32,595 bases of DNA. Source: Candidatus Schekmanbacteria bacterium. GTDB lineage: Bacteria > SZUA-182. Shown in pieces: positions 5,306-27,823 of this stretch. Location: positions 1 to 32,595 of the forward strand of contig JACRJN010000118.1 of NCBI GenBank assembly GCA_016235675.1. Direction: 5' to 3'. A program made the position numbers and the translations under genes. The notes below the pieces were generated by a model that was not told where the DNA came from, searched no databases, and was given only the letters and a program-made list of their open reading frames with translations. How positions within the stretch are numbered: the stretch's first letter is position 1; the number at the start of each line of letters is the position of its first letter.

Positions 5306-5370
5306 AGGCTTGAGGCTTGAGGAAACACCTGCTGTCGGATGTTATCCGGTTTTCCTCAAGCCTCAAGCCT
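5306..5370. repeat. Palindrome with heptamer arms between rpsQ and rplN
   Basis: A perfect 20-base inverted repeat, AGGCTTGAGGCTTGAGGAAA at 5306-5325 and its complement at 5351-5370, encloses a 25-base loop. Each arm holds two tandem AGGCTTG units (period 7). The same AAGCCYN heptamer logic recurs at 25089-25122, 25209-25242 and 27779-27811. The structure sits inside the spc operon; only AAAAA rather than a U-tract follows (5374-5378), so it does not look like an ordinary rho-independent terminator for the plus strand. Confidence 0.88.
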
Positions 5371-5388
5371 ATAAAAAGGTAAACAAGG

Positions 5389-5757
5389 ATGATACAGACG
5401 CAAACAAGATTAAAGGTGGCGGATAACAGCGGCGCGAAAGAAGCCCAATGTATTCGGGTACTCGGCGGTACCAGAAGAAGATACGCTTATTTAGGCGATG
5501 TGATTGTGGTCTCTATAAAATCAGCGGCGCCGGTAGGAGCGGTAAAAAAGGGTGAAGTGCATAAGGCGGTTATTGTGCGCACCGTGAAGGAATATCGCCG
5601 TCAGGACGGTTCGTATATTAAATTTGATGAAAATGCGGTGGTTTTGATAAATACTCAAATGGAACCGATCGGTACCCGTATTTTCGGCCCGGTGGCCAGA
5701 GAGTTAAGGGCAAAGAATTTCAGCAAGCTTATTTCTTTGTCTTTGGAGGTATTATAG
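5389..5757 (+). CDS. rplN: 50S ribosomal protein L14
   Basis: A 122-residue L14, the standard length, beginning [20 protein letters not shown]. The conserved stretch [20 protein letters not shown] and the C-terminal [18 protein letters not shown] are present. L14 binds 23S rRNA, forms an intersubunit bridge and is the docking site of the silencing factor RsfS in bacteria that have it. AAAAAGGTAAACAAGG provides the upstream purine-rich site right after the palindrome. The TAG stop overlaps the rplX GTG by one base. Confidence 0.97.
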
Positions 5758-6065
5758 TGTACATAAAAAAAGGTGATCTGGTCAAGGTAATAGCCGGGAA
5801 AGAGTTGGGCAAGCAAGGCAAGGTTTTAAAAACCCTGCCTAAAAAAGATCGTGTAATAATAGAAAAAATTAATATCATAAAACGTCACACCCGTCCGACC
5901 CAGAAAAATCAGCAGGGCGGCATAATAGAAAAAGAAGGTTCGATTCATTATTCCAATGCGCTGTTGGTGTGTAGTAAATGTAATAATGGTGTGCGGACTG
6001 GCGTCAAGATATTGGAAGACGGCAGTAAGGTTCGGGTCTGTAAAGCGTGTGGGGAGCAAATATAA
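5757..6065 (+). CDS. rplX: 50S ribosomal protein L24, zinc-ribbon form
   Basis: A 102-residue L24 with an N-terminal KOW motif ([20 protein letters not shown], residues 6-25) and the [12 protein letters not shown] segment. The C-terminal part carries two CxxC pairs (Cys72, Cys75, Cys95, Cys98) likely to bind zinc. L24 is an assembly initiator of the large subunit. The GTG start overlaps the rplN stop and the TAA stop shares its last A with the ATG of rplE, so three genes are coupled in series. Confidence 0.96.
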
Positions 6066-6604
6066 TGGCGCGTTTGTTGGAAAAATATAGAAAAGAGGTT
6101 GTTCCGGCCATGATGCAAAAGCAGGGTTACAAAAATTCTCTGCAAGTTCCCCGTTTAGAGAAGATTGTAATTAATATGGGCGTGGGCGAGGCGATTCAAA
6201 ATGCTAAGGCGCTGGATGCTTCTGTCCATGTGATGACCAGGATTTCCGGACAAAAACCGGCGGTAACCAGGGCGCGTAAATCGATTGCGAATTTTAAATT
6301 GCGGGAAGGCATGGCGGTAGGCTGTAAAGTAACCTTACGCGGTAAGCGGATGTATGAATTTTACGATAGATTGGTTAATGTGGCTTTACCGCGCGTCAGG
6401 GATTTTAAAGGAATTTCCCCGAAATCTTTCGATGGAAGGGGTAATTTTGCTTTTGGCTTACAAGAGCAATTAGTATTCCCTGAAATTAATTATGATGAAA
6501 TAGACCGTTTAAGGGGTATGGATATAATTATTGTAACCACGGCTAAAACAGATGACGAAGCCAGAAATATGCTGGCGCTTCTGGGAATGCCATTTAGGAA
6601 ATAA
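6065..6604 (+). CDS. rplE: 50S ribosomal protein L5
   Basis: L5 of 179 residues, beginning [19 protein letters not shown]. Conserved blocks are [35 protein letters not shown] and [21 protein letters not shown]5 binds 5S rRNA and contacts the P-site tRNA. I chose the ATG at 6065, behind GGGGAG (6051-6056) and overlapping the rplX stop by one base, rather than a GTG 18 bases upstream that would add six non-conserved residues. Confidence 0.96.
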
Positions 6605-6619
6605 GCGGGGGTACAAGTT

Positions 6620-6805
6620 TTGGCCAGACTAGCGCTTAAAGTAAAAGCTGAGAGAAAACCCAAGTTCAGTGCAAGAAAATATAATCGGTGCCCATTATGC
6701 GGGCGGCCAAGAGCTTTTTTACGCCGTTTCGGTATGTGCCGTATTTGTTTTCGCAACATGGCGTCGCGCGGTGAAATACCCGGCGTAACTAAAGCCAGTT
6801 GGTAA
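6620..6805 (+). CDS. rpsZ: 30S ribosomal protein S14, zinc type
   Basis: The 61-residue length and the two CxxC pairs (Cys24/Cys27 and Cys40/Cys43) mark the short zinc-binding form of S14, as opposed to the roughly 100-residue zinc-free form. The end, [13 protein letters not shown], is typical. The start is TTG at 6620, giving [26 protein letters not shown] lies upstream (6606-6611). S14 is assembled late into the 30S head. A zinc-free paralogue could exist elsewhere in the genome but is not seen here. Confidence 0.95.
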
Positions 6806-6821
6806 AAGGGAGTGAAATAGA

Positions 6822-7217
6822 GTGTTTACAGATCATATCGCAGATATGCTGACGCGGATTAGAAATGCCAATATGGTTGGGCATGAAAATGTAAGTATGC
6901 AATTGACTAAAATGAAGTTAGCTCTAGCTGAAATATTAAGCCAGGAAGGGTATATTCGCAGCTTTAATATCGATGATAGTCAAAATATTAAAGTTTTAAA
7001 TATAACCTTAAAGTATGGCCCTGATAATGAACCGGTGATTAGGGGAATAAAAAGGGTAAGCAAGCCCGGTTTAAGAGTATACAGGCGGGCAACTGATATT
7101 CCGAGGGTTGTTGACGGTATGGGTGTGGCGGTGCTGACAACCTCTAAGGGGATAATGACCGATAAAGCTTGTCGCAAAAACAATGTTGGCGGCGAGTTAA
7201 TATGTTATATATGGTGA
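6822..7217 (+). CDS. rpsH: 30S ribosomal protein S8
   Basis: S8 of 131 residues. The N-terminus (M)[16 protein letters not shown] and the C-terminal [20 protein letters not shown] are family hallmarks. S8 binds the central domain of 16S rRNA, and in E. coli it represses the spc operon by binding its own mRNA. The start is GTG at 6822, with AAAAGGGAGTG upstream. The product ends GGELICYIW, and the stop is 6 bases before the ATG of rplF. Confidence 0.96.
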
Positions 7218-7223
7218 TAAAAT

Positions 7224-7763
7224 ATGTCCAGAGTAGGTAGAAATCCAATCGTGCTGCCCAAGGGGGTAGAAGTAAAAATTGAAAAAAGTCATGTTTTCGT
7301 AAAAGGGCCGAAAGGCGCTTTGGAACAGGCTTTTAGTCCGCTGATAGCTATTGATATGGCAGACGGGAAAATAGTGTTGACCAGGCCGGATGATTCCAAG
7401 CAAAATCGGGCTTTGCACGGGTTAACCAGAAGTATCTTGGCCAATATGGTAAAAGGCGTTACCGGCGGTTTCAAGAAGACTTTGGAAATTAACGGCGTCG
7501 GATACAGAGCCAGTGTCGACGGAAAGAATCTGAATTTGCAGTTGGGATATTCGCATATGATAAATTTCCCGATACCGGGTGGTTTGAAGATCGATGTCGA
7601 AAAGCAGACCTATATTAATATTGAAGGGGTTAATAAGGAATTAGTCGGGCAGGTGGCTGCAAACATTAGAAAGTTGCGCGGCCCTGAGCCGTATAAGGGT
7701 AAAGGTATAAAATATAGTGATGAAGTCATAAGACGCAAGGCAGGTAAGGCTGGAGCGAAATAG
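7224..7763 (+). CDS. rplF: 50S ribosomal protein L6
   Basis: At 179 residues this is a standard two-domain L6. It starts [20 protein letters not shown] and ends with the conserved [20 protein letters not shown] segment. The middle motif [18 protein letters not shown] is also clear. L6 lies near the sarcin-ricin loop and the factor-binding region. A weak ribosome binding site lies in the last codons of rpsH, suggesting translational coupling. Confidence 0.97.
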
Positions 7764-7771
7764 GGACGGAT

Positions 7772-8134
7772 ATGGGTAAAGAGAAGAAAAGCAGTGGTAA
7801 TTACAGACATGAACGGGTCAGGAAGAAGGTAAAAGGTTCAAGTGACAGGCCGCGTTTGTGTGTTTTTAAGAGTTTAAAGCATTTATATGCACAGATAATC
7901 GATGACGAAAATGGTCATACATTAGTAAGCTTTTCAACTGTGGATAAGGCTTTCAAAACCGTTGAGAACAAAAGAGCCAGTTTAGTGACGGCCAAAGTAA
8001 TTGGTGAACAATTAGCTGTCAGAGCGCGGGAAAAAGGTATCAGCAAAGTGGTATTCGATCGTGGTGGTTATCCGTATCACGGCCAGGTTAAAGTGTTGGC
8101 GGATGCAGCCAGAGAAAAAGGTCTTGTGTTTTAG
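7772..8134 (+). CDS. rplR: 50S ribosomal protein L18
   Basis: L18 of 120 residues, a 5S rRNA binding protein of the central protuberance. Diagnostic parts are [38 protein letters not shown] and the end [20 protein letters not shown] followed by [17 protein letters not shown] precedes the ATG at 7772. The following gap of 50 bases to rpsE is larger than most in this cluster and holds no clear repeat. Confidence 0.96.
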
Positions 8135-8184
8135 AGGTAGCAGATGAAAAGTATAATGGGTTACTTCAGATTAAGGGGGTTAAC

Positions 8185-8682
8185 TTGGGCATAATTAATC
8201 CTGAGGAACTAAACCTTACAGACAAGGTAGTTTATATTAATCGAGTTGCCAAAGTTGTTAAAGGTGGAAGACGTTTCAGTTTTTGTGCCTTAGTGACGAT
8301 TGGTGATGGCAACGGTCATGTGGCTATTGGCTATGGTAAGGCGCGGGAAGTACCCGAAGCCATCCGTAAGGCGATGGAGCAGGCCAAAAAATCGCTGATG
8401 AAGGTATCGCTGAAAAACGGAACGGTGCCGCATACTATTATGGGGCATTATGGAGCCAGTAAGGTATTTTTAAAACCGGCAGCACCCGGTACAGGCTTGA
8501 TTGCCGGAGGTGCGGTACGGGCGATACTTGAAGTGGCAGGAGTACAGAATATTTTGACCAAATCGATCGGTACCAGCAACCCGCAAAACGTAGCCAAAGC
8601 GACGATAGATGGTTTGAAACGGTTACGGAATGCTGAATATCATAAAATGTTAAAAGAATACGATAAACCTCAAGAGATTTAA
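8185..8682 (+). CDS. rpsE: 30S ribosomal protein S5
   Basis: S5 of 165 residues with the N-terminal double-stranded-RNA-binding fold ([20 protein letters not shown], then [20 protein letters not shown]) and the C-terminal domain ([20 protein letters not shown]). S5 lines the mRNA entry channel and affects decoding accuracy. The start is TTG at 8185 because AAGGGGG (8173-8179) sits 5 bases ahead and this gives the usual length. Three bases separate it from rpmD. Confidence 0.96.
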
Positions 8683-8684
8683 AT

Positions 8685-8867
8685 ATGGCAAATTTGAAGA
8701 TTAAATTAAAGAAAAGCATAAGTGGTGCTACCGAGCGGCAACGCCAGACTGTATATAATTTAGGTTTAAGAAAATTAAATCAGACCGTGGTAAAACCCGA
8801 TAACCCGTGTGTTAAAGGTATGGTGACCAGGGTTGTCCACTTATTGGAAGTGGAGGAAGTAGCCTAA
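8685..8867 (+). CDS. rpmD: 50S ribosomal protein L30
   Basis: This 60-residue protein matches L30: [20 protein letters not shown], then [20 protein letters not shown] and [14 protein letters not shown]30 is a small 23S rRNA binding protein that is dispensable in some lineages and characteristically missing in CPR bacteria, so its presence here is taxonomically informative. Its TAA stop shares a base with the ATG of rplO (TAATG), and its start lies 3 bases after rpsE. Confidence 0.95.
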
Positions 8868-9313
8868 TGCAATTACATGATCTAAAACCTGCTGATGGTT
8901 CGACCAAGAAGCGCAAAAGAATAGGCAGAGGACCGGGATCAGGTCATGGAAAAACTGCCTGTAAAGGACACAAAGGTCAGAAGGCGCGTACCGGGGCACG
9001 CACTAAAAGGGGCTTCGAGGGTGGTCAGATGCCGCTTATCAGACGTATTCCTAAGCGCGGGTTCACCAATATATTCCACAAAGATTACGAAATTGTGAAG
9101 CTAAGTCATTTGGAAACGTTCGAGGCCGGAACGGTTGTCACCCCGGAGTTGTTATTATCTAAGGGTTTCATTAAAAACACCAAGAGTATTTTTAAAGTTC
9201 TGTGCAATGGCGAATTAACCAAGAGCGTAACGGTCATGGCACATAAATTTTCCGATACCGCTAAGGAAAGGATCGTTTCCTGCGGCGGCAAAGTGGAAAT
9301 TATAGCAAATTAG
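8867..9313 (+). CDS. rplO: 50S ribosomal protein L15
   Basis: L15 of 148 residues. The basic, glycine-rich N-terminal extension ([20 protein letters not shown], then [20 protein letters not shown]) and [13 protein letters not shown] identify it. This extension penetrates the 23S rRNA core during late assembly. The gene overlaps rpmD by one base. It is followed by a 32-base gap before secY, the usual order in the spc operon. Confidence 0.97.
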
Positions 9314-9345
9314 AGTATAAACGGGGCTAAAATAGGTAGATTGAC

Positions 9346-10650
9346 TTGTTAGAAAAGTTACAAAATATATTTAAAATACCGGAATTAAAGAGAAAAGTTT
9401 TAATCACCTTAGGCCTGTTGACAGTTTATAGAATCGGGGCGCATATCCCGACGCCGGGAATAAACGGAAAAGCGCTGGCGGCGTTTTTTTCCTCGACCCA
9501 GGGAACGTTGTTGGGTTTTTTTGACATGTTTTCCGGCGGGGCATTAAGTCGTTTGACGGTGTTTGCCTTGGGAATAATGCCCTATATCGATGCAGCCATT
9601 ATTTTGGAGTTGTTGACGGTGGTATTTCCTCTTTTGGAGCGCTTGGCTAAAGAAGGGGAACAAGGGCGTAAAAAATTAACCCAATATACCAGATATGGGA
9701 CGATTTTTATTGCGATAATTCAAGGATTAGGAATAAGTTTCGGTTTAGAAGGGATGAAAGGCCCAAGCGGGGAAATGGTAGTGATTAATCCCGGTTGGGG
9801 TTTTCGTGTTATTACCGTTATCACCTTGACGGCAGGTACCGCATTCATAATGTGGCTGGGCGAGCAAATAAGCGAGAGGGGTATCGGCAACGGGATTTCC
9901 TTAATTATATTTTCCGGTATAGTAGTGCGGGCGCCTGCTGCAATCATCAATACCTATCGTTTGGTGAGCACCGGTGAAATGCAGCTTTTCGTAGTGTTAA
10001 TACTCTTAGTGATTATGGCGCTGGTTATCGCTTCAATAATTTTTGTAGAGAGCGGCGAGCGGCGTGTAATGGTTCAATATGCCAAAAGGGTGGTAGGCCG
10101 CAAAATGTACGGTGGGCAGAGTACGCATATTCCGTTAAAGGTTAATACGGCAGGGGTTATACCGGTTATATTTGCCTCCTCGATTATCATGCTGCCGGCA
10201 ACGTTAGCCCGGTTTGTAGCTCATCCCTGGGCGCAGAAAATCGCGGACTTATTATCGCCGGGCAGTGTTTTAAATAGCTTGCTATATGTGATATTTATAA
10301 TTTTCTTCTGTTATTTTTATACCGCGATAGTTTTCAATCCCATTGATTTAGCCGATAATATGAAGAAATACGGTGGGTATATTCCGGGAATCAGGCCGGG
10401 GAAAAGCACGGCGGAGCATATTAATAAGATTTTAACCCGGATAACCTTTGCCGGTGCCATCTACTTAACTTTGATAACGTTATTGCCGACTTTTATGATC
10501 AAATTAATGAATGTACCGTTTTATTTCGGCGGCATAGCCTTATTAATAGTCGTGCAAGTGGCGTTGGATACCGTACGGCAGACCGAATCGCATTTAATGA
10601 TGCGTTATTATGACGGTTTTATGAAAAAAGCGGGAATGAGAAAAGCCTAA
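9346..10650 (+). CDS. secY: Protein translocase channel subunit SecY
   Basis: SecY of 434 residues is the inner-membrane channel of the Sec translocon, working with SecE, SecG and SecA. The N-terminal TVYRIGAHIPTPGIN, the plug region around FFDMFSGGALSRLTVFALGI, the loop RVMVQYAKRVVGRKMYGGQS and the C-terminal PIDLADNMKKYGGYIPGIRP followed by GKSTAEHINKILTR are standard SecY motifs. About ten hydrophobic segments are visible. The start is TTG at 9346, giving MLEKLQNIFKIPELKRKVL. The gene lies between rplO and adk as in many bacteria. Confidence 0.97.
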   Translation: MLEKLQNIFKIPELKRKVLITLGLLTVYRIGAHIPTPGINGKALAAFFSSTQGTLLGFFDMFSGGALSRLTVFALGIMPYIDAAIILELLTVVFPLLERLAKEGEQGRKKLTQYTRYGTIFIAIIQGLGISFGLEGMKGPSGEMVVINPGWGFRVITVITLTAGTAFIMWLGEQISERGIGNGISLIIFSGIVVRAPAAIINTYRLVSTGEMQLFVVLILLVIMALVIASIIFVESGERRVMVQYAKRVVGRKMYGGQSTHIPLKVNTAGVIPVIFASSIIMLPATLARFVAHPWAQKIADLLSPGSVLNSLLYVIFIIFFCYFYTAIVFNPIDLADNMKKYGGYIPGIRPGKSTAEHINKILTRITFAGAIYLTLITLLPTFMIKLMNVPFYFGGIALLIVVQVALDTVRQTESHLMMRYYDGFMKKAGMRKA

Positions 10651-10665
10651 AAGAGTAAGGTATAG

Positions 10666-11322
10666 ATGATGCGGCTGATTTTTTTGGGAGCACCGGGGGC
10701 CGGTAAAGGCACGCAGGCACAGAGAGTAAGTGCAAAATATTCATTGCCGCAAGTGTCTACCGGTGATATACTGCGGGATGCGGTAAAATCTAATACCGAG
10801 TTGGGGAAAAAGGCGCAGGGATTTATCCAAAAAGGTTTTTTGGTGTCGGATGAAATAATTCTGGGGATTGTGAAAGAGCGTCTGGCCAAAGATGATTGTC
10901 AAAAAGGCTATATTTTAGACGGTTTCCCGCGCACAATTATTCAGGCGCAGGCTTTTAATGGGAATTTAAGCCAAAGCCGCGCTAAAATCGACTATGTTTT
11001 AAATATTGAGGTGCCGGAAGATAAGATTTTGGAGCGCTTATCGGGACGACGGGTTTGTACTAAGTGTGGTGAAGGCTATCATTTAATCTTTAAAAATCCT
11101 TTGAAAGAAAATATTTGTGATAAGTGCGGCAGTGGATTATATCAGCGTAAAGATGATCAAAAAGAGACGATTATTGAGCGGCTTAGACAATATCGGGAAC
11201 AGACCTTGCCGTTGATTGATTATTATAAGAAACAAAATGTATTGAGAACAATCAACGGTGATGAGCAGATAGATCTAATCAGTAAAAAAATTGATGATTT
11301 GTTGTCAGGCTTGAGGGCATGA
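10666..11322 (+). CDS. adk: Adenylate kinase, zinc-LID form
   Basis: Adenylate kinase interconverts ATP plus AMP and two ADP in the cytoplasm. The 218-residue product has the P-loop GAPGAGKGT at residues 8-16, the AMP-binding STGDILRDAV at 31-40, and DGFPRT at 85-90. The LID domain carries four cysteines (131, 134, 151, 154) that form a structural zinc site, as in Gram-positive and many thermophilic enzymes. Two ATG codons in tandem (10666, 10669) are possible starts. Its TGA overlaps the map ATG by four bases (ATGA). Confidence 0.97.
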   Translation: MMRLIFLGAPGAGKGTQAQRVSAKYSLPQVSTGDILRDAVKSNTELGKKAQGFIQKGFLVSDEIILGIVKERLAKDDCQKGYILDGFPRTIIQAQAFNGNLSQSRAKIDYVLNIEVPEDKILERLSGRRVCTKCGEGYHLIFKNPLKENICDKCGSGLYQRKDDQKETIIERLRQYREQTLPLIDYYKKQNVLRTINGDEQIDLISKKIDDLLSGLRA

Positions 11323-12068
11323 TACCGCTCAAGAATAAGCTGGAAGTTGACAAGCTAAGAAATAGCTGTAAAATAGCGGCTGAAACCTTAATGCTGTTAA
11401 AAGGATTGGTAAAACCCGGAATAACCACATATGAATTGAATAAAGCGGCGGAACAGTTTATCTTAGCGCAAAATGCCAAGCCGTCTTTTAAGGGTTATAT
11501 GGGATTCCCCAGTGCTTTATGTACATCGGTTAATGATGAGGTAGTGCACGGGATACCATCCAATAGGCAACTTAAAGAAGGCGATATAGTAAGTTTGGAT
11601 GTTGGTACCTGGCAGGATGGGTTTTATGGAGACATGGCAATAACCTTGCCGGTTGGGGACATAAAACCCGAAGTTAAAAAATTGTTGGATGTAACCCAAA
11701 AAGCGCTGTATCTAGGTATTGAGCAGGCTAAAGTGGGAAAAAGAATCAGCGATATTTCCTGGGCGATACAGTCGATAGCGGAAAAAGAGGGTTATTCAGT
11801 AGTCAGGGCTTTTGTCGGTCATGGTATTGGAAGGCGTTTACACGAGGAGCCGAAGATTCCTAATTACGGTTTGCCGGGACGCGGCGAGAAAATAAAAGCC
11901 GGGATGGTTTTGGCGATTGAGCCGATGATCAATATGGGTGGCAGCCCGGTAAGGATTTTGGCCGATCAATGGACTGCGGTAACCGGCGATGGGAGTTTAT
12001 CGGCGCATTTTGAACATACGGTGGCAATAACACATGATGGGAATCAAATTTTAACGAAAATAGAATAA
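11319..12068 (+). CDS. map: Type I methionine aminopeptidase
   Basis: This 249-residue metalloprotease removes the initiator methionine from nascent proteins. The five metal ligands are visible at Asp94 (SLDVG), Asp105 (YGDMA), His168 (VGHGIG), Glu201 (AIEPM) and Glu232 (FEHTV), spaced exactly as in the E. coli enzyme. There is no N-terminal extension, which fits type Ia. Its start overlaps the adk stop (ATGA), indicating coupled translation, and infA follows after 2 bases. Confidence 0.97.
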
Positions 12069-12070
12069 CT

Positions 12071-12289
12071 ATGGGCAAAGAAGATGTAATTGAAATTGAA
12101 GGTAAAGTGATTGAAAGCTTACCGAATGCTATGTTTAGAGTGGAGTTGGAAAACGGGCATAAGGTATTGGCGCATATATCAGGTCGGATGAGGAAAAATT
12201 TTATTCGCATCTTAGATGGCGATAAGGTATTGGTTGAATTATCCCCCTATGATTTAAATCGCGGCAGGATAGTTTTTCGCTTCAAATAA
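12071..12289 (+). CDS. infA: Translation initiation factor IF-1
   Basis: IF-1 of 72 residues, an OB-fold protein that occupies the A site during initiation. [40 protein letters not shown] and the end [12 protein letters not shown] are the classic sequence. It starts only 2 bases after map and probably depends on ribosomes terminating there. The order map-infA-rpmJ-rpsM is widespread; the KOW-domain gene that some clostridia place before infA is absent. Confidence 0.97.
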
Positions 12290-12315
12290 TAGGAATTTAC
12301 AAGGATTAACCAATC

Positions 12316-12429
12316 ATGAAGGTTAAAGCGTCGGTTAAAAAAATTTGTTCAAAATGTAAAGTAGTCCGTCGTAAAAATGTTGTACGGATTATTTGCGAAA
12401 ACCCGCGCCATAAGCAGCGGCAAGGCTAA
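12316..12429 (+). CDS. rpmJ: 50S ribosomal protein L36, zinc type
   Basis: A 37-residue [23 protein letters not shown] onward, ending [10 protein letters not shown]. Cys11, Cys14, Cys27 and His32 form the zinc ribbon of the C-plus form of L36, the smallest ribosomal protein, which binds 23S rRNA late in assembly. The ORF was read directly from the sequence. It lies in the standard slot between infA and rpsM. ACAAGGATTAACCAATC precedes the ATG, giving an AAGGA site at 12300-12304. Confidence 0.95.
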
Positions 12430-12441
12430 GGAGGTAGAGGG

Positions 12442-12834: not shown

Positions 12835-12856
12835 TATTGAATAAGGGATTGGTAGA

Positions 12857-13246: not shown

Positions 13247-13281
13247 TCTGTATCTTTTTAAATATGCCAAGGAGGAAGAAT

Positions 13282-15587: not shown

Positions 15588-15603
15588 CGAAAAAATAGTC
15601 ACG

Positions 15604-19204: not shown

Positions 19205-19465
19205 CGGGATCGCAGGGTGGTCTGCGTCCCAATGTTGTTGAGTCAAGGAATTTTATCTGAAAATATCTTTTTGCCCATGAAGGACACGAAAAATGTAGTC
19301 CCGTGGCTTTAGCCACGCATTTTCAGCTTAGGCTGAGACTAAAAGCATGTTCACCCGGAACGGCTTGAATTATAGAGAAGATTTAACCATTTGTGAGACA
19401 ATATCGCATGGCTAATGCCATGAAGATCAGCCCTGAAGGGCTGGAACTACGATATTAATTGATAG

Positions 19466-19490
19466 GTTCAGCGTGAGAACACGCCGAAAC
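19466..19490. repeat. Family B palindrome, diverged copy
   Basis: GTTCAGCGTGAGAACACGCC followed by GAAAC, an imperfect palindrome with a GAGAA-type loop. It matches the form GTTTCGGnnTG-loop-CAnnCCGAAAC seen in seven other places (25128-25153, 25172-25197, 26511-26538, 26551-26578, 26676-26701, 26731-26756, 27726-27751). Confidence 0.6.
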
Positions 19491-19500
19491 ATCGAATTTT

Positions 19501-19706
19501 GGTGGGCACAGCCCACCCTACCGAAGTAGAGGCTTTAGCCTCGTCAACTTAGGAATAAAATTTGCGAAACTGATAAACTACGGCTATAATAAAATAGTCT
19601 TGTAGGGTGGGCTTTGCCCACCAATTTTGGTTGTCATTACATTATTTATGATCGGCATAATTTAAATTGAGAATAATTTAAAATGGTGGGCAGAGCCCAC
19701 CCTACA
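19501..19706. repeat. Family C GGTGGGC repeats, three copies
   Basis: Three 22-base palindromes of the form GGTGGGCACAGCCCACCCTA lie at 19501-19522, 19601-19622 (inverted) and 19685-19706. The loop varies: CACA, TTT and CAGA. Between the last two is AT-rich sequence with no recognised feature. A fourth copy is at 27758-27779 within the secretion operon. Confidence 0.8.
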
Positions 19707-19735
19707 GGGGTTTATTTTACTACTAAGGGGTTAAC

Positions 19736-20398: not shown

Positions 20399-21274
20399 AT
20401 GAATCTTTCCGTAAACATTAATTGTGCCGGGTGCCAAAATTGCATGTCCTGCCAGGTTGCCGACGGTGAAAAATTCAAATGCGGGGAAGGCTGCGTGGTG
20501 GAAACGAGTAAGGGGATATTTCTGGCGCATATCCAACAAATCGTGCCCGGTAATAAGGTAGACCAGGCTTGCGATTGCAAGTTTTTGCGTAAAGCCACCG
20601 CAGAAGATCTGGAGAAAAACCAGCAAAACCTGGAATCGGCGCAAAAAGCCCTGGATTTCTGCGCTCAGCGCATCCGAACACGCAATTTGCCGATGAAGCT
20701 GGTGGGGGTGCAATATCTTCTGGACGGCAGTAAGGCGGTTTTTTACTTTACCGCCGACGGCCGGGTCGATTTTCGTGAGTTGGTGCGGGATTTGGCCTAT
20801 GAATTGCGCACCCGCATTGAAATGAAGCAGATCGGGGTCAGGGACGAAGCCAAAATTATGGGCGGCTACGGCAGTTGCGGCCAGCAATTGTGTTGCAGCA
20901 CCTTTTTGCGCGATTTCGAGCCGGTCTCCATCCGTATGGCCAAAGTCCAGAATCTGACCCTTGATCCCACCAAGATTTCCGGAGTGTGCGGGCGACTGAT
21001 GTGTTGTTTGGGCTACGAGCACCAGGATTATGAAAAGGGCCGGAAATTGCTGCCCAAGATCGGCGAACACGTTACCGTCAACGGTAAAAACGGCAAAGTC
21101 ACCAGCTTGGATTTCATCAAAGAAATGGTGTTTGTTCAATTCGAAGAGGGTGCTCTGGAAAAATACCCCGCCGAGCAATTGAAAGGCAAGACCAAACCCG
21201 CTGCCAATCAAGAGCAAGAGCGCGAAGCGGAGCAAAACGGCGAGGGAGAAGCTCCCCCCGGTAAAGTGGATTAA
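20399..21274 (+). CDS. ricT: RicT/YaaT-like PSP1-domain protein with Cys-rich N-terminus
   Basis: The 291-residue product carries the PSP1 C-terminal domain with GGYGSCGQQLCCSTFLRDFE and KISGVCGRLMCCLGYEHQDY, the cysteine motifs of RicT (YaaT). In Bacillus the RicA-RicF-RicT complex holds iron-sulfur clusters and assists RNase Y-dependent mRNA processing. Here the N-terminus is unusual: Cys9, Cys12, Cys15 and Cys18 in CAGCQNCMSC, plus Cys28 and Cys32, resembling ferredoxin-type cluster ligands. The C-terminal tail is Glu/Gln-rich. The ATG directly follows the tmk stop, with AAGGGA upstream. RicA and RicF partners are not in the window. Confidence 0.88.
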   Translation: MNLSVNINCAGCQNCMSCQVADGEKFKCGEGCVVETSKGIFLAHIQQIVPGNKVDQACDCKFLRKATAEDLEKNQQNLESAQKALDFCAQRIRTRNLPMKLVGVQYLLDGSKAVFYFTADGRVDFRELVRDLAYELRTRIEMKQIGVRDEAKIMGGYGSCGQQLCCSTFLRDFEPVSIRMAKVQNLTLDPTKISGVCGRLMCCLGYEHQDYEKGRKLLPKIGEHVTVNGKNGKVTSLDFIKEMVFVQFEEGALEKYPAEQLKGKTKPAANQEQEREAEQNGEGEAPPGKVD

Positions 21275-21359
21275 TCGGGCTACTTTTAGCGATGCACGAA
21301 TTTGATTTTTTCCCATCTACCTTAAAGCAACTCACCCATAAATCCCCACGTGTACTAAC

Positions 21360-21606
21360 TTGTATTCAAATTTGCAGTCAATCAGGTAAATCTATTGTCG
21401 TAGCGCAGACCTTCAGGTCTGCCCCTCATGCACGATTAGCATGGACGTTGGGTATGAGGACTGAGGTGTGAGGACTGAGGTATGAGTAAAATTCACTCAG
21501 TCCTCAGTCCTGAACAACTCAGTTCTCAACTATAGTCCCGCCTCTCTAAGCAGACCTAAAGGTCTGTGCTACGTTAATATAATTGAGTTTACTTGTTTGA
21601 ATACAA
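21360..21606. repeat. Nested composite palindrome with heptamer arms
   Basis: Three layers of inverted repeat are nested. The outer layer is TTGTATTCAAA (21360-21370) with its complement at 21596-21606. The middle layer is the pair 21399-21422 and 21550-21573, matching at 22 of 24 positions when inverted; each member is itself a small palindrome (GCAGACCTTCAGGTCTGC and CAGACCTAAAGGTCTG). The inner layer is an array of GAGGACT/GAGGTGT-type heptamers at 21456-21486, facing the complementary CTCAGTCCTCAGTCCT at 21496-21511. Confidence 0.85.
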
Positions 21607-21753
21607 ATTGGTATTAATATTCCTAAACAAACACACATTCCCGTAATTTCCCTCAAAAGATCAACCCTTCACACGGTAAACGCTTAAAAATGTAATATGT
21701 CTGTACCAGGTACTGCCTTTACAGGGAATATATGTTGCATATTTCTTTAGTAT

Positions 21754-21895
21754 GTTGTAAGTAAGGTATCACGAGGGTTATGTCTCACGTAAGGAGGTGA
21801 GGTCTTTTAATTAGAGATTAGCCTAAAAGGGTGACTTTTGATGCCGTAACAACTTAACTAGATGTTTTGAAAAGTTCCATTACCAAAGGAGGTAA
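21754..21895 (+). promoter_or_regulatory. Putative structured 5' leader of the pseudopilin operon
   Basis: GTTGT (21754-21758) can pair with ACAAC (21849-21853), and GGTATCA (21765-21771) with TGATGCC (21839-21845), closing a domain. Inside are hairpins CTCAC/GTGAG around an AAGGAGG-containing loop (21784-21801) and CTTTTA/TAAAAG (21804-21829). TTACC (21880-21884) and GGTAA (21891-21895) then flank the ribosome binding site of the first pilin. It does not match riboswitch consensus sequences I know, including c-di-GMP-I. The fold is read by eye only. Confidence 0.35.
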
Positions 21896-21900
21896 CAATT

Positions 21901-22551
21901 ATGTGGAGCAAAAGAGAAAAAGAAGCGGGTTTTACCTTGATTGAAATTGTGGTGATTTTGGCGGTCATCGCCATTATCGCGGCGGCCATGGTTCCGCGTA
22001 TATCGGGTATTATGGATGACGCCAAAATATCCCGCGCCCAATCAGAAGTGCAAACCGTCGGTATGGCGATTTTACGGTTCAACGCCAATACCGGAAAATG
22101 GCCGGCCAGGGACGGCGACGCTGCCGACAACAAGTTGACCACCCTGGTCAGCGGCAGCAGCAGTATTCCGGTACCGTTGCCGGCTTATGCAGGCGGCGAT
22201 ACCAATTATTACGGCAACGATGCTACTACGGCTACCGGCGATTATCTGGACAATCACCTGAAAATGAACACTCCTAAGGGAAGCGCCGACGCTGCCTATC
22301 CTACCAGCGGGGTCAATCGTTGGAACGGCCCTTATTTGCAAGAGGTGGGCGCTGATCCCTGGGGCAATGCCTATGTAGTAAACATCATCAGCACATATGA
22401 TAACGATACGACAGATAATCTTTATTGTTACGTGATTTCCGCCGGACCGGACGGTACGATCCAAACCGATGCTGAGGTTAAAGACAGCGAATTGGCCACA
22501 CATGCTATCGGCGGCGACGATGTGGCCTTTTTGGTGCGGGCTAGAAAGTAA
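21901..22551 (+). CDS. GspG-like type II pseudopilin, copy 1
   Basis: The 216-residue protein has a short basic leader and a class III prepilin cleavage site, MWSKREKEAG|FTLIEIVVIL, with Glu5 of the mature chain and a hydrophobic N-terminal helix. The C-terminal WNGPYLQEVGADPWGNAYVV and VISAGPDGTIQTDAEV resemble the calcium-binding region of major pseudopilins (GspG). It would be processed by a prepilin peptidase and form the pseudopilus that drives secretion. AAAGGAGGTAACAATT before the ATG is the strongest ribosome binding site in this operon. A similar gene, about 80 percent identical by eye, follows 55 bases later. Confidence 0.92.
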   Translation: MWSKREKEAGFTLIEIVVILAVIAIIAAAMVPRISGIMDDAKISRAQSEVQTVGMAILRFNANTGKWPARDGDAADNKLTTLVSGSSSIPVPLPAYAGGDTNYYGNDATTATGDYLDNHLKMNTPKGSADAAYPTSGVNRWNGPYLQEVGADPWGNAYVVNIISTYDNDTTDNLYCYVISAGPDGTIQTDAEVKDSELATHAIGGDDVAFLVRARK

Positions 22552-22572
22552 AGGCTGTATTTTGCATCCTTT

Positions 22573-22598
22573 ACCTCATTCCTGAAAGGAAGGGAGGT
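22573..22598 (+). promoter_or_regulatory. Hairpin enclosing the ribosome binding site of the second pseudopilin
   Basis: ACCTC (22573-22577) pairs with GAGGT (22594-22598) and TTCCT (22579-22583) with AGGAA (22587-22591), with a GAA loop. The 3' strand contains the GGGAGG ribosome binding site of the pseudopilin starting at 22607. The structure could reduce or tune translation of the second gene relative to the first. Confidence 0.5.
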
Positions 22599-22606
22599 TG
22601 TTTGAT

Positions 22607-23257
22607 ATGAATCCCAAGAACAGAGAGAGTGGTTTTACCTTGATAGAAATCGTGGTTATTTTGGCGGTTATCGCCATTATCGCCGCTTCGATGGTACCGA
22701 GGATTTCCGGAATTATCGATGATGCCAAAATCGCCCGCGCCCAATCGGAGGTACAAACGGTAGGCATGGCGATCTTGCGCTTCAACGCCAATACCGGCAA
22801 ATGGCCGGCCAAAAATGGTGACGGCGAAGACAATAAGCTTTATACATTAGTCAGCGGCAGTGCCAGTATTCCGGTACCGATACCGGCTTATGCCGGCGGC
22901 GGCGACACCAATTATTTCGGCAGCGACGCTTCTGTGGCCACCGGCGATTACCTGGACAACCATCTGAAGATGAATTCGCCTAAGGGCAGCGCGGATAATG
23001 CCTACCCGACTACCGGTGTTAACCGCTGGAACGGTCCGTATTTGCAGGAAGTGGGCGCCGACCCGTGGGGCAATGCTTATGTGGTGAATATTATCAGTTC
23101 CTACGATAACAATACCGAAGAAAACTTATATTGTTACGTGATTTCCGCAGGCCCCGACGGCACCATTCAAACCGATTCCGACGTTACCGCGGCTGAAGTG
23201 GCGACTCATGCGGTGTCAGGTGATGACATCGCCTTCTTGCTGCGTTCCAGAAGATAA
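22607..23257 (+). CDS. GspG-like type II pseudopilin, copy 2
   Basis: This 216-residue paralogue of the preceding gene keeps the prepilin site, MNPKNRESG|FTLIEIVVIL, and the C-terminal WNGPYLQEVGADPWGNAYVV and VISAGPDGTIQTDSDV. Changes are scattered and mostly conservative, and the DNA has diverged at many synonymous positions, so both copies appear to be under selection. I chose the ATG at 22607, 9 bases after GGGAGG, rather than the TTG at 22598, which falls on the end of the ribosome binding site. Two similar subunits may have distinct positions in the pseudopilus. Confidence 0.91.
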   Translation: MNPKNRESGFTLIEIVVILAVIAIIAASMVPRISGIIDDAKIARAQSEVQTVGMAILRFNANTGKWPAKNGDGEDNKLYTLVSGSASIPVPIPAYAGGGDTNYFGSDASVATGDYLDNHLKMNSPKGSADNAYPTTGVNRWNGPYLQEVGADPWGNAYVVNIISSYDNNTEENLYCYVISAGPDGTIQTDSDVTAAEVATHAVSGDDIAFLLRSRR

Positions 23258-23413
23258 CGACTATCACCCTGCCGGCCCGCATTATTGTGCCGAATAATGC
23301 GGGCGGTAAGGTTGAAATGTTGACGGTTATCTGTTGTCGGTTGTCAGTTAAAACCTTATACGAAACCGACAACCGACAACCGACAACTGACAACCTGGAA
23401 AGGGTGAATAAAC
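23258..23413. repeat. Gap with GC-rich hairpin and GACAACC heptamer arrays
   Basis: A perfect hairpin, GCCCGCATTATT (23275-23286) with its complement at 23293-23304, is not followed by a U-tract. Then GTTGTCGGTTGTCAGTT (23333-23349) faces an array of ACCGACA units at 23365-23395 (three ACCGACA, one ACTGACA, then ACC; period 7). The same GTTGTCGGTTGTC motif recurs at 29458-29470 with complementary units at 29547-29561. The hairpin could attenuate readthrough from the abundant pilin genes into gspE. Confidence 0.8.
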
Positions 23414-25087
23414 GTGGAAAACCAGACGTTCAAGCCGCTTGGCCAAAGACTTATCGAACAAGGTGTTATCAGCAAGGCGCAACTGGATTTGGCCTTGGAA
23501 GAACAAAAACGCACCGGCGATTATTTAGGCGAGATTTTACAGCGCCTGGGATTTGTTACCGAAGCGCAGCTTACCTTTTGTTTAGCCGATCGCATCGGCG
23601 CCGCCTCCATTAAATTAAAAACGGTTTCCATCCCCTCCGAAGCCCTCAAGCTTGTTCCGGAGACTTTCGCCCGCTCACACAGATTAATTCCCGTCAATTT
23701 AGTAAATAATCTGCTTACCGTAGCCATGGTCGATACTGTCGATGTGGTGACCATCGATGAACTGCGCCGCCTGACCAAATGCCATATCGAGGTCAAATCC
23801 GCCACTCACGGTGACATCCTCAAGGCTATCGAAAAATATTACGCCGAGGAAGTGGTCGACGAGGACATCGAGAAGATCATCACCGAGGCGGAAAAGATCA
23901 GCGCCGACAAGAAAGAAGACGAGAGTTTGGCCGTCCCGATCATTAAACTGGTAGAGCAGATTTTATACCGCGGCATCAAGATGGGCGCCACCGATATTCA
24001 TATCGAGCCGGACGAATTGGTAATGCGCACCCGCTACCGTATCGACGGGGTGATGCAGCAAGGCCCCTCATTTCCCAAAAAGCTGCAATCGGCAATTATT
24101 ACCCGCATCAAAATTATTTCCGACCTGAACGTTTCGGAAAGCCGTATCCCACAGGACGGTAAAACCCGTTATACCATCGGCCAGAAAAAGATTGACATGC
24201 GCGTCTCCACCCTGCCCGCCATCTTCGGCGAGGCGATCGTCATTCGTATTCTGGATCGCGCCAAGGTCTTGGTCGGTTTGGCAAACCTGGGTTTTTTCGA
24301 TAAAGACCGGGCGATTTTCAATGACCTGATTGAGCGCCCTAACGGGATTATCCTGGTTACTGGGCCTACCGGTTCGGGGAAAACCACCACTCTCTATACC
24401 GCCTTAGGCAGCATCAACTCCCTGGAAAAGACGGTTATCACCCTGGAAGACCCGGTGGAATACGAGCTTTCCACCATTCGCCAGTCGCAAATCAACGTCA
24501 AAGCGGGAATGACCTTTGCTGCCGGGTTACGGGCGATTTTGCGCCAGGACCCGGACGTGATTCTGATCGGTGAAATGCGTGATAAAGAGACGGCGGAAAT
24601 GGCGGTGCGCGCCGCTTTGACCGGCCACCTGGTCTTTTCCACCCTGCATACCAACGACGCCCCCAAAGCCATCCCCCGTTTGGTGGATATGGGAATTACG
24701 CCCCTGCTGATCTCCTCCTCAGTGATTGCCATCATCGCCCAGCGCCTGGTGCGCATAATCTGCGAGGATTGCAAGGTGGAGGGCGAACCCAATATGCAGT
24801 TGGTGAAAAAGTTCAATCTGGAGGAGCGGCTGGATTTTTCCCAGCCCTTTTATAAAGGCAAGGGCTGCCCGGTTTGCAACAACATCGGTTTCAAAGGACG
24901 GCGGGCGATCTTTGAAATCCTGGTGATGAATGCCGAAATCAGCAAGTTGATTATCAACGATATAGACCCGGATAAAGTCAGAGCGGTAGCCAGTCAATCC
25001 GGTATGCGCTCCATGCTTGATGACGGCCTGGTTAAGGTGCAGGCCGGGATGACCACCCTGGATGAGGTGTTAAGGGTGGTGTTTTAG
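23414..25087 (+). CDS. gspE: Type II secretion / type IV pilus assembly ATPase (GspE/PilB)
   Basis: The 557-residue hexameric ATPase powers pseudopilus or pilus extension at the inner membrane. An N-terminal MshEN/GspE_N domain begins LGQRLIEQGVISKAQLDLAL. Walker A is GPTGSGKTT at about 317, the Asp box LEDPVEYE follows, Walker B is in PDVILIGEMRDKETAEMAVR (Glu387), and the His box is GHLVFSTLHTNDA. Two CxxC pairs (Cys450/453 and Cys485/488) form the zinc domain typical of GspE and PilB rather than the retraction ATPase PilT. The start is GTG at 23414 behind GAAAGGG. Confidence 0.95.
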   Translation: MENQTFKPLGQRLIEQGVISKAQLDLALEEQKRTGDYLGEILQRLGFVTEAQLTFCLADRIGAASIKLKTVSIPSEALKLVPETFARSHRLIPVNLVNNLLTVAMVDTVDVVTIDELRRLTKCHIEVKSATHGDILKAIEKYYAEEVVDEDIEKIITEAEKISADKKEDESLAVPIIKLVEQILYRGIKMGATDIHIEPDELVMRTRYRIDGVMQQGPSFPKKLQSAIITRIKIISDLNVSESRIPQDGKTRYTIGQKKIDMRVSTLPAIFGEAIVIRILDRAKVLVGLANLGFFDKDRAIFNDLIERPNGIILVTGPTGSGKTTTLYTALGSINSLEKTVITLEDPVEYELSTIRQSQINVKAGMTFAAGLRAILRQDPDVILIGEMRDKETAEMAVRAALTGHLVFSTLHTNDAPKAIPRLVDMGITPLLISSSVIAIIAQRLVRIICEDCKVEGEPNMQLVKKFNLEERLDFSQPFYKGKGCPVCNNIGFKGRRAIFEILVMNAEISKLIINDIDPDKVRAVASQSGMRSMLDDGLVKVQAGMTTLDEVLRVVF

Positions 25088-25088
25088 A

Positions 25089-25242
25089 AGGCTTCAGGCT
25101 CTGGGCTTCAGGCTTTAGGCTAATTTTGTTTTGGTTTGTCCCCAAGCCGAAACCGTAAATAGATAACGTTAGTTTCGGTGTGAGAACGCACCGAGACACT
25201 AAATGTTTTAGCCTGAAGCCCGAAGCCTAAAGCCCAAAGCCC
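25089..25242. repeat. Heptamer-armed palindrome enclosing two family B copies
   Basis: The arms 25089-25122 and 25209-25242 are inverted copies of AAGCCYR heptamer arrays, matching at 27 of 34 positions. All seven differences are transitions and fall mostly at the last two positions of the heptamer. Between them lie two family B palindromes, at 25128-25153 (GTTTTGGTTTGTCCCCAAGC followed by CGAAAC) and 25172-25197 (GTTTCGGTGTGAGAACGCAC followed by CGAGAC). The whole fills the gspE-gspF gap and ends about 10 bases before the gspF ATG. Confidence 0.85.
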
Positions 25243-25251
25243 GGAGAACCT

Positions 25252-26457
25252 ATGCCCAAATACACATACCACGCCAGAAACGACGACGGTGACAAAATCA
25301 GCGGAGAGCTTTTGGCCAATGACCTGGATGAATTGACGGAAAAGCTGGAGGGGATGAATCTGTTCCTGATTTCCGCTAAAGAAGCGCATGAGGTCAAAAG
25401 CTACACCCTGTCCAAAAAGGTTAAGCGCAAGGATTTGTTGACCTTCACCATCTATCTGAATACCTTGATTTCAGCCGGTGTGCCCCTTCTGGTCGGGTTG
25501 CAGCAGATTGCCGAGCAGACGGAAGACCCGTATTTCAAAAAAGTAATCTTCTCTATTTTGGATGATATTAGGGGCGGACGCAACATTTCGGAAGCCATGG
25601 AAAAGCATCCTAAGGTTTTCGATGGATTGTATACCAGCGTGATCAAGGCCGGGGAAAGTTCCGGCAGCCTGGAAATGGTGCTCAATGACCTGGCGGCTTT
25701 TCTGGAATGGCAGGATGATTTGAACAAAGAAGTCAGAAAGGCCACGGTTTACCCCTGTGTTTTGCTGGGTACGGTAGGCTCGCTGGTACTGGTGCTGATT
25801 GTTTTCGTTTTCCCGCGGTTTATGAAAATGTTTACCGACATTAATATGGACTTGCCCGGCCCGACCCTATTGGTAATTTCCTTAAGTACCTTCGTGAATA
25901 ATTATTGGCATTTGTTGATTGGCAGTTTAGTAACTTTCATCGTTTCCTATAAAGTGGCTTACCGCTACGACCAGGGGCGGGTGTTTATCGACAGATATAA
26001 GATGCACCTGCCGATTGTAGGGGTCTTGGTGACCAAGATCGCGGTTTCCCGCTTTGCCCATTACCTGGGCTTGATGCTGCGCGCCGGGGTAAGCCTGGTC
26101 GAGTCTTTCGAGATCGTGGAAAAAGTAGTCGGCAACGCCGCTATCGCTCAGGTTGTCCATTCCATGCGGGATATGGTATTAGGCGGCGAGAAAATCTCCC
26201 AGGCCATGGAAAGATATACCGAGTTTCCGCCGTTGGTGGTGCAGATGATCGCGGTGGGGGAAATGAGCGGCAAGCTGGAGGATAATCTGAACAAAGTCTC
26301 CAAGTTCTATGACCGGGAAGTGCCGGAGACGATCCACAAAACCCTGGGAGCGATTCAGCCGCTGATGATTGTTTTCATGGCCGGCGTGATAATCATCATC
26401 GCTCTGGCTATCTTTTTACCGATGTTTCAAATGGCCGGAGCGGCTAAGAAGGGATGA
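25252..26457 (+). CDS. gspF: Inner-membrane platform protein GspF/PilC
   Basis: At 401 residues this matches the GspF/PilC family, a polytopic platform that links the ATPase to the growing pseudopilus. Two T2SSF repeats are seen: the first around LTFTIYLNTLISAGVPLLVG and ESSGSLEMVLNDLAAFLEWQ, the second around RFAHYLGLMLRAGVSLVESF and VGEMSGKLEDNLNKVSKFYD. Three hydrophobic segments are clear (near residues 170-190, 215-235 and 370-390). CCCGGAGAACC precedes the ATG. The stop overlaps an ATG (ATGA) that opens the next reading frame. Confidence 0.94.
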   Translation: MPKYTYHARNDDGDKISGELLANDLDELTEKLEGMNLFLISAKEAHEVKSYTLSKKVKRKDLLTFTIYLNTLISAGVPLLVGLQQIAEQTEDPYFKKVIFSILDDIRGGRNISEAMEKHPKVFDGLYTSVIKAGESSGSLEMVLNDLAAFLEWQDDLNKEVRKATVYPCVLLGTVGSLVLVLIVFVFPRFMKMFTDINMDLPGPTLLVISLSTFVNNYWHLLIGSLVTFIVSYKVAYRYDQGRVFIDRYKMHLPIVGVLVTKIAVSRFAHYLGLMLRAGVSLVESFEIVEKVVGNAAIAQVVHSMRDMVLGGEKISQAMERYTEFPPLVVQMIAVGEMSGKLEDNLNKVSKFYDREVPETIHKTLGAIQPLMIVFMAGVIIIIALAIFLPMFQMAGAAKKG

Positions 26458-27599
26458 AGGGTGAAGGGATGAAGGGTGAAGGCGAAAGGATGAAAGAATT
26501 TTTTACATGGGCTTTCGGGTTGTCCTCAAGCCGAAAGCAAACAGAGGAACTGTTTCGGCTTGAGAACAAGCCGAAACACCAGAAGGTCATTGCGAGGCAG
26601 CCGTATCGCCGAAGCAATCTCAGACGCACGGGTAGAGATTGCTTCGCTCCGCTCGCAATGACGCTGGATGTCGATGTTTCGGTGTGTCCTCACACCGAAA
26701 CCCAGCAAGGGGTAACGTTCCCTCTTGTCGCTTTCGGCTTGAGGACAAGCCGAAAGACCGGGAGTCGGGGCTTTTCCCTCCTGGAAATCCTGGTCGTCAT
26801 GACCATTATCGCCATTCTGGGGGCGACTTTGGCTCCGGCGGCCTTTCAGATAATAGACGATTCCCGTGAGAGTGCCACGCGGGCGGAAATGGAGTCCAAC
26901 CACCGAGCGATAGTGGGCGATCCGCATCAAGGTCAGTACGGTTACGCGGCTGATTTGGGCGGATTGCCCACATCCTTGGCGGATTTGAATACCAATCCGG
27001 GAGCGCCGGTTTATAACGGCGATAATCTGCTGGGCATCGGCCTGGGCTGGAACGGGCCTTACATCAACAGCGGTTATGCCGCCAACAATTATTTGCTGGA
27101 CGCCTGGGGGCGGGATTATCTCTACGATTCCAATACCGGACAAATAACCAGTTTAGGCTCGGACGGGTTACAGGCCACCCATGACGACCTTGTCGTCCCC
27201 GCAACAGCGGTAAGCGTGCGCGGGGATATTTCAGTAACGGTGACGGTAGCCGATGGCCAAAACTCCAAAGTAACCAGAAACTTAGGTAACGATGCAGCTT
27301 CGGTCTGGATTTATTATTCAGCAAACGGGGAGGAGCAAAACGCCGCCGCAGTCTGGGATAATAATAATCAGGCATTTACTACTTATAGCTGGACAACCCA
27401 TCCCCATCAGGGGATGCACGCGGTAAAAGTCATCGGCCTGGATAATTTTTCCGGAACTGAAGCGGTAACCGAGGCATTGGTTTATCGGGGAACGACTTTT
27501 ATCAATGTCTTTCTGGGATTTTTCGATCTTAATCAAGGCAACAATGGAAACGGAAATGGCAACGGCCCGGACGGTACGGGGCCGCCGGGGCAGAATTAA
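26454..27599 (+). CDS. Third pseudopilin with repeat-derived N-terminal extension and Ig-like tail
   Basis: The frame is open for 381 codons from an ATG overlapping the gspF stop. The first about 95 codons are repeat DNA: a 15-base direct repeat (MKGEG twice), a family A copy and four family B palindromes. The pilin proper starts at the cleavage site SRG|FSLLEILVVMTIIAI near residue 107. A TTG at 26739, inside the last palindrome, would give an 11-residue leader but has no ribosome binding site; an ATG at 26658 is another option. After the pilin domain (WNGPYINSGYAANNYLLDAW) comes a beta-rich, Ig-like stretch, ending in a Gly/Asn-rich tail. It is probably a minor, GspG- or GspH-type subunit. 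The true start is unresolved. Confidence 0.72.
   Translation: MKGEGMKGEGERMKEFFTWAFGLSSSRKQTEELFRLENKPKHQKVIARQPYRRSNLRRTGRDCFAPLAMTLDVDVSVCPHTETQQGVTFPLVAFGLRTSRKTGSRGFSLLEILVVMTIIAILGATLAPAAFQIIDDSRESATRAEMESNHRAIVGDPHQGQYGYAADLGGLPTSLADLNTNPGAPVYNGDNLLGIGLGWNGPYINSGYAANNYLLDAWGRDYLYDSNTGQITSLGSDGLQATHDDLVVPATAVSVRGDISVTVTVADGQNSKVTRNLGNDAASVWIYYSANGEEQNAAAVWDNNNQAFTTYSWTTHPHQGMHAVKVIGLDNFSGTEAVTEALVYRGTTFINVFLGFFDLNQGNNGNGNGNGPDGTGPPGQN
26511..26578. repeat. Two family B palindromes
   Basis: GCTTTCGGGTTGTCCTCAAG followed by CCGAAAGC lies at 26511-26538, and TGTTTCGGCTTGAGAACAAG followed by CCGAAACA at 26551-26578. Arms of about 11 bases flank a 4-6 base loop. Both lie within the reading frame of the third pseudopilin extension. 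Confidence 0.85.
26586..26662 (+). repeat. REP-like palindrome, family A, copy 2
   Basis: This copy runs from GTCATTGCGAGGCAGCCGTA to GCTCGCAATGAC. It is 77 bases, with inner arms GAAGCAATCTC and GAGATTGCTTC. It lies within the extended reading frame of the third pseudopilin and supplies the in-frame ATG at 26658. Confidence 0.9.
26676..26756. repeat. Two family B palindromes abutting the pilin leader
   Basis: GTTTCGGTGTGTCCTCACAC followed by CGAAAC occupies 26676-26701; CTTTCGGCTTGAGGACAAGC followed by CGAAAG occupies 26731-26756. The arms differ between the two (TGTG/CACA against CTTG/CAAG) but stay complementary. The second ends only 18 bases before the codon of the mature pilin N-terminus, so it has replaced any native start region. 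Confidence 0.88.
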
Positions 27600-27823
27600 A
27601 TAATCGAGGTACGAGGTACGAAAAAGTCATTGCGAGGCAGCCTTATCGCCGAAGCAATCTCCAGCCGCACGAATGGAGATTGCTTCGCTTCGCTCGCAAT
27701 GACATTTTATAATGATGTAATGGATGTCTCGGTGTGTTCCCACACCGAAACAAAAATGGTGGGCACAGCCCACCCTACAAGCCTGAAGCCCGAAGCCTAG
27801 AGCCTAACGCCAGGTATTTCACC
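27600..27823. repeat. 224-base gap of five stacked repeats
   Basis: In order: a CGAGGTA heptamer array (27605-27621), family A copy 3 (27626-27703), a family B palindrome (27726-27751), a family C GGTGGGCACAGCCCACC element (27758-27779) and an AAGCCTG/AAGCCCG heptamer array (27779-27811). There is almost no unique sequence; the short ribosome binding site AGGT lies immediately after. The reading frame of the following gene is open back to 27734 through these repeats. Confidence 0.88.

Follow-up and report, generated by a model that had tools for sequence, protein, structure and literature searches.

Heptamer arrays between the genes of a Schekmanbacteria genome: recurrent unit families, shared hairpin loops and a fixed G-then-C order

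Introduction

Tandem repeats of seven-base units have so far been reported separately from Cyanobacteria, Xanthomonas, Beggiatoaceae, Geobacter and the trnL intron of Nostoc. Two of these reports describe the closest systems. In Geobacter metallireducens, class 3 of the paired "global regulator" sites consists of five tandem copies of MTYCTGA (Aklujkar et al. 2009, PMC2700814). In Nostoc, the P6b repeats of the trnL intron are built from TDNGATT or NNTGAGT (PMC3488679, PMC4476775). Here we consider seven-base arrays in the gaps between genes of contig JACRJN010000118.1 from Candidatus Schekmanbacteria bacterium. This contig, taken whole (32.6 kb), is the window of the analysis; it belongs to a 2.98-Mb draft genome, G000, of 190 contigs and about 90% completeness. 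Eight of the comparison genomes share its class, and none its genus, family or order.

A preliminary description of the window had named several such arrays, and all are present at the positions given there, as judged by direct reading and Tandem Repeats Finder. It took their units to be specific to each locus and held that copying does not explain them. Neither view survives the counts and copies given below. The reading that we favor, to which we give about half our confidence, is that the arrays are arms of dispersed, non-autonomous, lineage-specific hairpin elements, which lie between genes, spread by copying and are changed by slippage. In each element the 5' arm would be rich in G and the 3' arm rich in C, and either arm would hold some three to five cores in tandem, spaced by a constant step that is 7 nt here and 8 or 9 nt in sister families. 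After being copied within a genome, elements would diverge, mainly as tolerated positions undergo transitions and whole units are gained or lost. Each lineage would have one dominant family, quickly replaced between related species, with the same families recurring in distant bacteria. The arms may serve as recognition sites for a putative trans-acting mobilizing protein.

Recurrent unit families

The preliminary description had called for a comparison of intergenic DNA with shuffled controls at lag 7. In a 1.04-Mb sample of G000, about a third of the genome (171 kb intergenic and 889 kb coding, from simple longest-ORF (open reading frame) gene calls), 87 intergenic period-7 arrays scored at least 9, compared with 2.8 in dinucleotide shuffles; coding DNA held 19. 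Intergenic arrays numbered 0–16 at lags 4–6, 8 and 10–13. Lag 14 gave 49, a harmonic of 7, and lag 9 gave 34, which form a separate family, CACGAAGNN. The low counts at other lags, together with the shuffles, show that the lag-7 excess is real.

When consensus heptamers are clustered by single linkage, 74 of 100 intergenic arrays fall together in a loose group near AAGCCYR. This group also contains CGAGRTA and is not to be taken as one family; smaller clusters center on AACTACG (GTTCGTA), CTGACTY, A/T-rich units and AACCGAC. The foremost family is GGCTHYR/AAGCC, whose pattern GGCTYYRGGCTYYRGGC has 289 matches in G000 and one for the reversed control; CGAKRTA has 70. Pattern counts and clustering thus agree that units are not locus-specific, although several unrelated units do share the one period, as first described. 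In GGCT arrays a conserved core, GGCT (94–97%), is joined to a degenerate spacer of three positions (54–66%), which vary chiefly by transitions. Alignment of the arrays as copies of a single repeat, which the preliminary description would have taken as fatal to a shared generating process, holds inside families and fails between them.

Shared loops and probable insertion

Loops common to different loci provide 45 links, compared with 12 for shuffled loops, many of the 45 being due to other dispersed palindromes that lie inside the loops. The clearest element has the 36-nt loop CAGAAAGAGACCCTCCCCTGGAGGGTATTTGAATT and occurs in at least seven copies in G000, with differing arm lengths and unrelated flanks. 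Separate loci also have a common order of units (z 6.6), and this persists when the seven CAGAAAGAGACCCTCCCCTGGAGGGTATTTGAATT-loop copies are removed (z 5.0). In a second genome, G006, hairpins have the common loops AATAAAGGCTATCTTTT in both orientations.

The gap between rpsQ and rplN in G000 comprises a 65-bp hairpin and 28 bp of flank, 93 bp in all. In two readable relatives of the same class this gap is judged to be about 25–35 bp, after correction of the assigned start codon. The agreement of that size with the non-hairpin flank suggests that the hairpin was inserted as a whole.

Arrays also occur inside genes. In G006 an in-frame array interrupts cysS, in the part encoding a variable loop of cysteinyl-tRNA synthetase (L191:10394-10434); in the congener G002 (L202) the same place holds a longer, degenerate, CAGGAGCC-rich insert. 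Separately, a 1789-codon ORF of G006 (L178:2014-7380) resembles two fused UvrA-type proteins, and its linker is a heptamer array read as RVVSGQWPVVSG.

Turnover, recurrence and slippage

A family can differ sharply between relatives: CTGACTY, with 204 matches in G006, is absent from the congener G002. AAATYCA matches G037 60 times and G124 19 times. The same families recur at a distance. GGCTYYR has 18 matches in the unrelated, array-rich genome G048, which has further units in common, such as CCTTCAT and AGGCTTG. A search with a G006 hairpin (CAGGAGT) returned matches on plasmids of Nostoc, Trichormus, Tolypothrix and others. The loop-side unit CAGAATAA is common to G006, G000 and the same-locus arms of Nostoc sp. 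C057 and C052. At that Nostoc locus one strain has exactly one 7-nt unit more than the other, and there are substitutions besides; slippage in 7-nt steps does occur. A text search of the literature with the literal repeat strings gave no match.

Ordinary replication slippage would let any local heptamer expand, 7 nt being a step that suits the polymerase, and would form facing arms by template switching in the hairpin. In its favor are gain and loss in 7-nt steps, seen in the Nostoc strains and in Cyanothece (PMC4679880), and the finding that many bacteria have heptamers as the most abundant long simple sequence repeats (LSSR) of their genomes (Mrazek et al. 2007, cited by PMC4679880 and PMC4692102). 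Recent expansion, however, predicts alike neighbors, and adjacent units in GGCT arrays are hardly more alike (identity 0.735) than units of different arrays (0.711); simple local slippage was rejected as the sole cause for this reason. The variable bases of facing arms match at 0.61, compared with 0.55 for permuted or different-locus arms (p 0.02). This mirror likeness is weak, and with it the hairpin-templated slippage that the preliminary description proposed loses ground. The presence of the same units at dozens of loci and in distant genomes, and the polarity described next, also speak against slippage, which, already weakened as sole cause, we regard as distinctly improbable.

A fixed polarity

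Polarity was scored in five samples: G000, G006, G048, Kovacikia and Nostoc/Trichormus, with small counts from the last and from G048. Among neighboring arrays no more than 250 bp apart, the G-rich array comes first and the C-rich array last in 55 pairs, and the reverse holds in 3, with pairs counted as independent, an assumption that chains of arrays partly violate; about 20 further pairs lie on the same strand. The order holds for facing pairs (35 versus 1), for neighbors with unrelated units (20 versus 2, p 1.2e-4), and for GGCT pairs, in which the G-rich arm leads in 25 of 25. Solo arrays of G000 and G006 keep the same orientation relative to the nearest gene boundary (30 versus 9, p 0.001), against the background skew near starts. 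The repeats of Xanthomonas and Nostoc have the same orientation preference (PMC4692102). The polarity rule is new.

One explanation, which seems to us quite unlikely, is a strand-polar process that builds or orients tandem short-unit arrays and, irrespective of the unit, leaves G-rich sequence at both 3' ends that run into an intergenic gap; it would act alike in Cyanobacteria and in this lineage. A single mechanism of generation or selection would then lie behind the many heptamer repeats that have been named separately in bacteria.

Alternatively, G-rich repeats might be added at a break to both 3' ends entering a gap before these ends are joined, which would produce an order like that of head-to-head telomere fusion. 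Such break-end extension stays a candidate chiefly because of the polarity, which extends to unrelated units and is followed by solo arrays. Shared-loop copies are not what it would lead one to expect. Moreover, array-rich G000 (about 90% complete) and G048 (95% complete) yielded no RVT_1 reverse transcriptase, and among the array-rich genomes tested Ku was either absent or marginal, with one sub-threshold match, in G094. Break-end extension appears very improbable. A reverse-transcriptase or telomerase-like generator, and Ku-dependent end joining, were rejected on these respective results.

Selection could also keep the orientation, if a protein that binds DNA or RNA acted at gene ends and each array offered it a series of sites. 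Such a role has been proposed for TAACTGA in Beggiatoaceae (PMC4679880) and for the paired sites of G. metallireducens (PMC2700814). The conserved core with its free spacer, the strong intergenic bias, the closeness of G000 arrays to gene boundaries (nearer than expected) and the orientation of solo arrays all fit binding sites. Against them, G006 arrays have no boundary preference, arrays lie within cysS and other genes, and the entire CTGACTY family is missing from G002. A scan for promoters detected nothing sigma-70-like near 5306-5370, and terminator-like sites (a stem followed by a T run) were likewise absent from the window heptamer hairpins; arms as promoters or terminators were rejected accordingly. 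The stems contain more A-C mismatches (48) than G-T pairs (26), which gives no support for maintained RNA pairing, and selection on RNA structure was rejected, A-C not being depleted relative to G-T. On balance we consider binding sites unlikely.

The favored reading, copied hairpin elements, has its own difficulties, and the following observations weigh against it. Many hairpin loops are unique. Solo arrays, and unlike arrays that adjoin in G-then-C order, are not predicted by a copied palindrome. Neither a target-site duplication nor a clean empty site was found; between G002 and G006 the DNA is too divergent for a clean comparison, and the cysS site in G002 holds a different insert. No mobilizing protein was identified: Y1 transposases are present in G000, G006 and G048 and absent from G104 and G106, which have some arrays; they are widespread and do not track arrays; and no array lies within 500 nt of the few readable Y1 genes. 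Finally, the identical heptamers of distant phyla may not be homologous.

Sister families with other steps

The period-9 family has CACGAAGNN three times, as inverted ends around interiors of 22–413 nt, in constant order. CACGAAG precedes CTTCGTG in 5 of 5 cases in G000 and in all 20 opposite-strand neighbors from IMG/VR contigs, which may include host DNA. The tetramers that adjoin the outer ends tend to match inside a given element (0.90 versus 0.74 permuted, z 4.4). The pattern CACGAAGNNCACGAAGNNCACGAAG has 70 exact matches in G000. In a set of 386 genomes, matches are confined to 10 (among them G340, 135; G280, 18; G239, 8), and the reversed control has two in total. The CACGAAG family thus occurs in unrelated genomes as well as in IMG/VR contigs; a plasmid search with its element gave no match. 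G006 has a period-8 family, CGCAGAGN. With steps of 8 and 9 in these families, period 7 is therefore one of several.

In layout, a period-9 element has three CACGAAG units, each separated from the next by two free bases, opposite three CTTCGTG, and outer ends TNAC/GTNA that match within the element; the G000 loci are L015:6435-6581, L079:4244-4410, L081:16230-16445, L082:15574-15828 and L107:3040-3142. The period-8 arrays of G006 (L175, L177, L188, L190) have three CGCAGAG, the middle one often CGCTGAG, facing CTCTGCG, and are often letter-identical across loci. At a 10-nt step, AAGGGGGATTAAGGGGGATT occupies about ten intergenic places in G000 (L004, L010, L015, L021, L060, L061, L063, L100).

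Arrays of the window

All four facing pairs in the window are clear inverted repeats, as the preliminary description had it for most arrays; the last two arrays of Table 1 are real, yet not complementary to each other. Three of the hairpins, folded as single-stranded DNA, greatly exceed dinucleotide shuffles in stability. The two arrays of exactly 31 bases first singled out exist but follow no rule, array length genome-wide ranging from 16 to 59 nt. In the rpsQ-rplN gap the arms are 20 nt each. The array from 21451 is better described by its 14-mer than by a 7-mer. An Rfam search of the window gave no match.

Table 1. Heptamer arrays of the window
Feature	Position	Strand	Basis and remarks
G-rich arm, AGGCTTG units, rpsQ-rplN gap	5306..5325	+	Direct reading, Tandem Repeats Finder; hairpin DNA fold z -8.6
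C-rich facing arm, CAAGCCT units	5351..5370	+	100% complementary to 5306-5325
G-rich arm, GAGGACT/GAGGTRT alternating (14-mer)	21451..21486	+	Tandem Repeats Finder; DNA fold z -6.9
C-rich facing arm, CTCAGTC units	21496..21511	+	Reading, Tandem Repeats Finder; inverted repeat with 21451-21486
G-rich degenerate arm, GTTGTCG units	23319..23349	+	Tandem Repeats Finder, inverted repeat; DNA fold z -5.9
C-rich facing arm, ACCGACA units	23364..23395	+	18 nt 5' of GTG start of PilB/GspE-type ATPase gene
G-rich arm, GGCTHYR units (reads AGGCTYY)	25089..25121	+	1 nt past stop of ATPase gene
C-rich facing arm, AAGCCYR units	25210..25242	+	Ends 9 nt short of next ATG
G-rich array, CGAGGTA units	27605..27621	+	Family has 70 pattern matches in genome
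C-rich array, AAGCCYR units	27779..27804	+	Differs from 27605-27621; G-then-C order kept

Several of these arrays lie in the gaps of a type IV pilus-like gene run (23414-29455), which opens with the PilB/GspE-type ATPase gene. The window also contains other dispersed palindromes, GTAGGGTGGGC...GCCCACCCTAC, GTCATTGCGAG...CTCGCAATGAC and GGTAGCACAGGC...GCCTGTGCTACC, at 19489-19706, 27630-27708 and 30817-30867. Some are nested within heptamer-armed gaps, and their GTAG-like ends recall REP elements.

Comparison with known systems

Several heptamer repeats that had been reported separately are now linked by the same units, facing arms and the same polarity. Two regularities, the fixed G-then-C order and the rapid replacement of families, are testable against any mechanism. 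If they are confirmed on complete genomes, a shared mobile or strand-polar process would be favored over chance slippage.

REP/REPIN elements, moved by RAYT (TnpA-REP), are likewise short, numerous, intergenic, lineage-specific palindromes. The arms described here, in contrast, read without a GTAG or CGTC tag, begin with heptamer units, and are tandem at 7 nt and variable in length. The TAACTGA repeats of marine Beggiatoaceae, Cyanobacteria and Bacteroidetes are also intergenic, patchy across phyla and found in ribosomal operons, but almost all are direct and just 5' of start codons (PMC4679880). GGGAATC in Xanthomonas and GGGGAYT in Nostoc have the polarity seen here, G-rich on the coding strand after a gene and on the non-coding strand before one; they differ in having one quadruplex-forming unit per organism (PMC4692102).

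The likeness to cyanobacterial heptamer repeats noted in the preliminary description holds. The arrays are tandem 7-nt intergenic units above chance, with a 7-step change between Nostoc strains C057 and C052, as in LSSR and short tandem repeats (STRR). The STRR and Nostoc P6b repeats are likewise degenerate heptamers facing in a hairpin, with two interchangeable unit classes and 7-step changes (PMC3488679, PMC4476775). P6b, however, is one site in an intron RNA where pairing matters, whereas the present arrays occupy many intergenic sites and bear no sign of kept pairing.

The sites of G. metallireducens are also degenerate tandem heptamers paired on opposite strands, and other classes there are built of octamers or 8-9-mers, the paired sites lying a variable distance apart (PMC2700814). 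The unit CTGAMTY is common to class 3, to G006 throughout and to some loci of G000, whose dominant unit is GGCTHYR and not MTYCTGA. The polarity rule and shared-loop copying are features found here that do not appear in the available portion of that description. With the paired sites of G. metallireducens and the P6b repeats of Nostoc as their nearest precedents, the heptamer arms belong to a known, unexplained kind and not to a new category.

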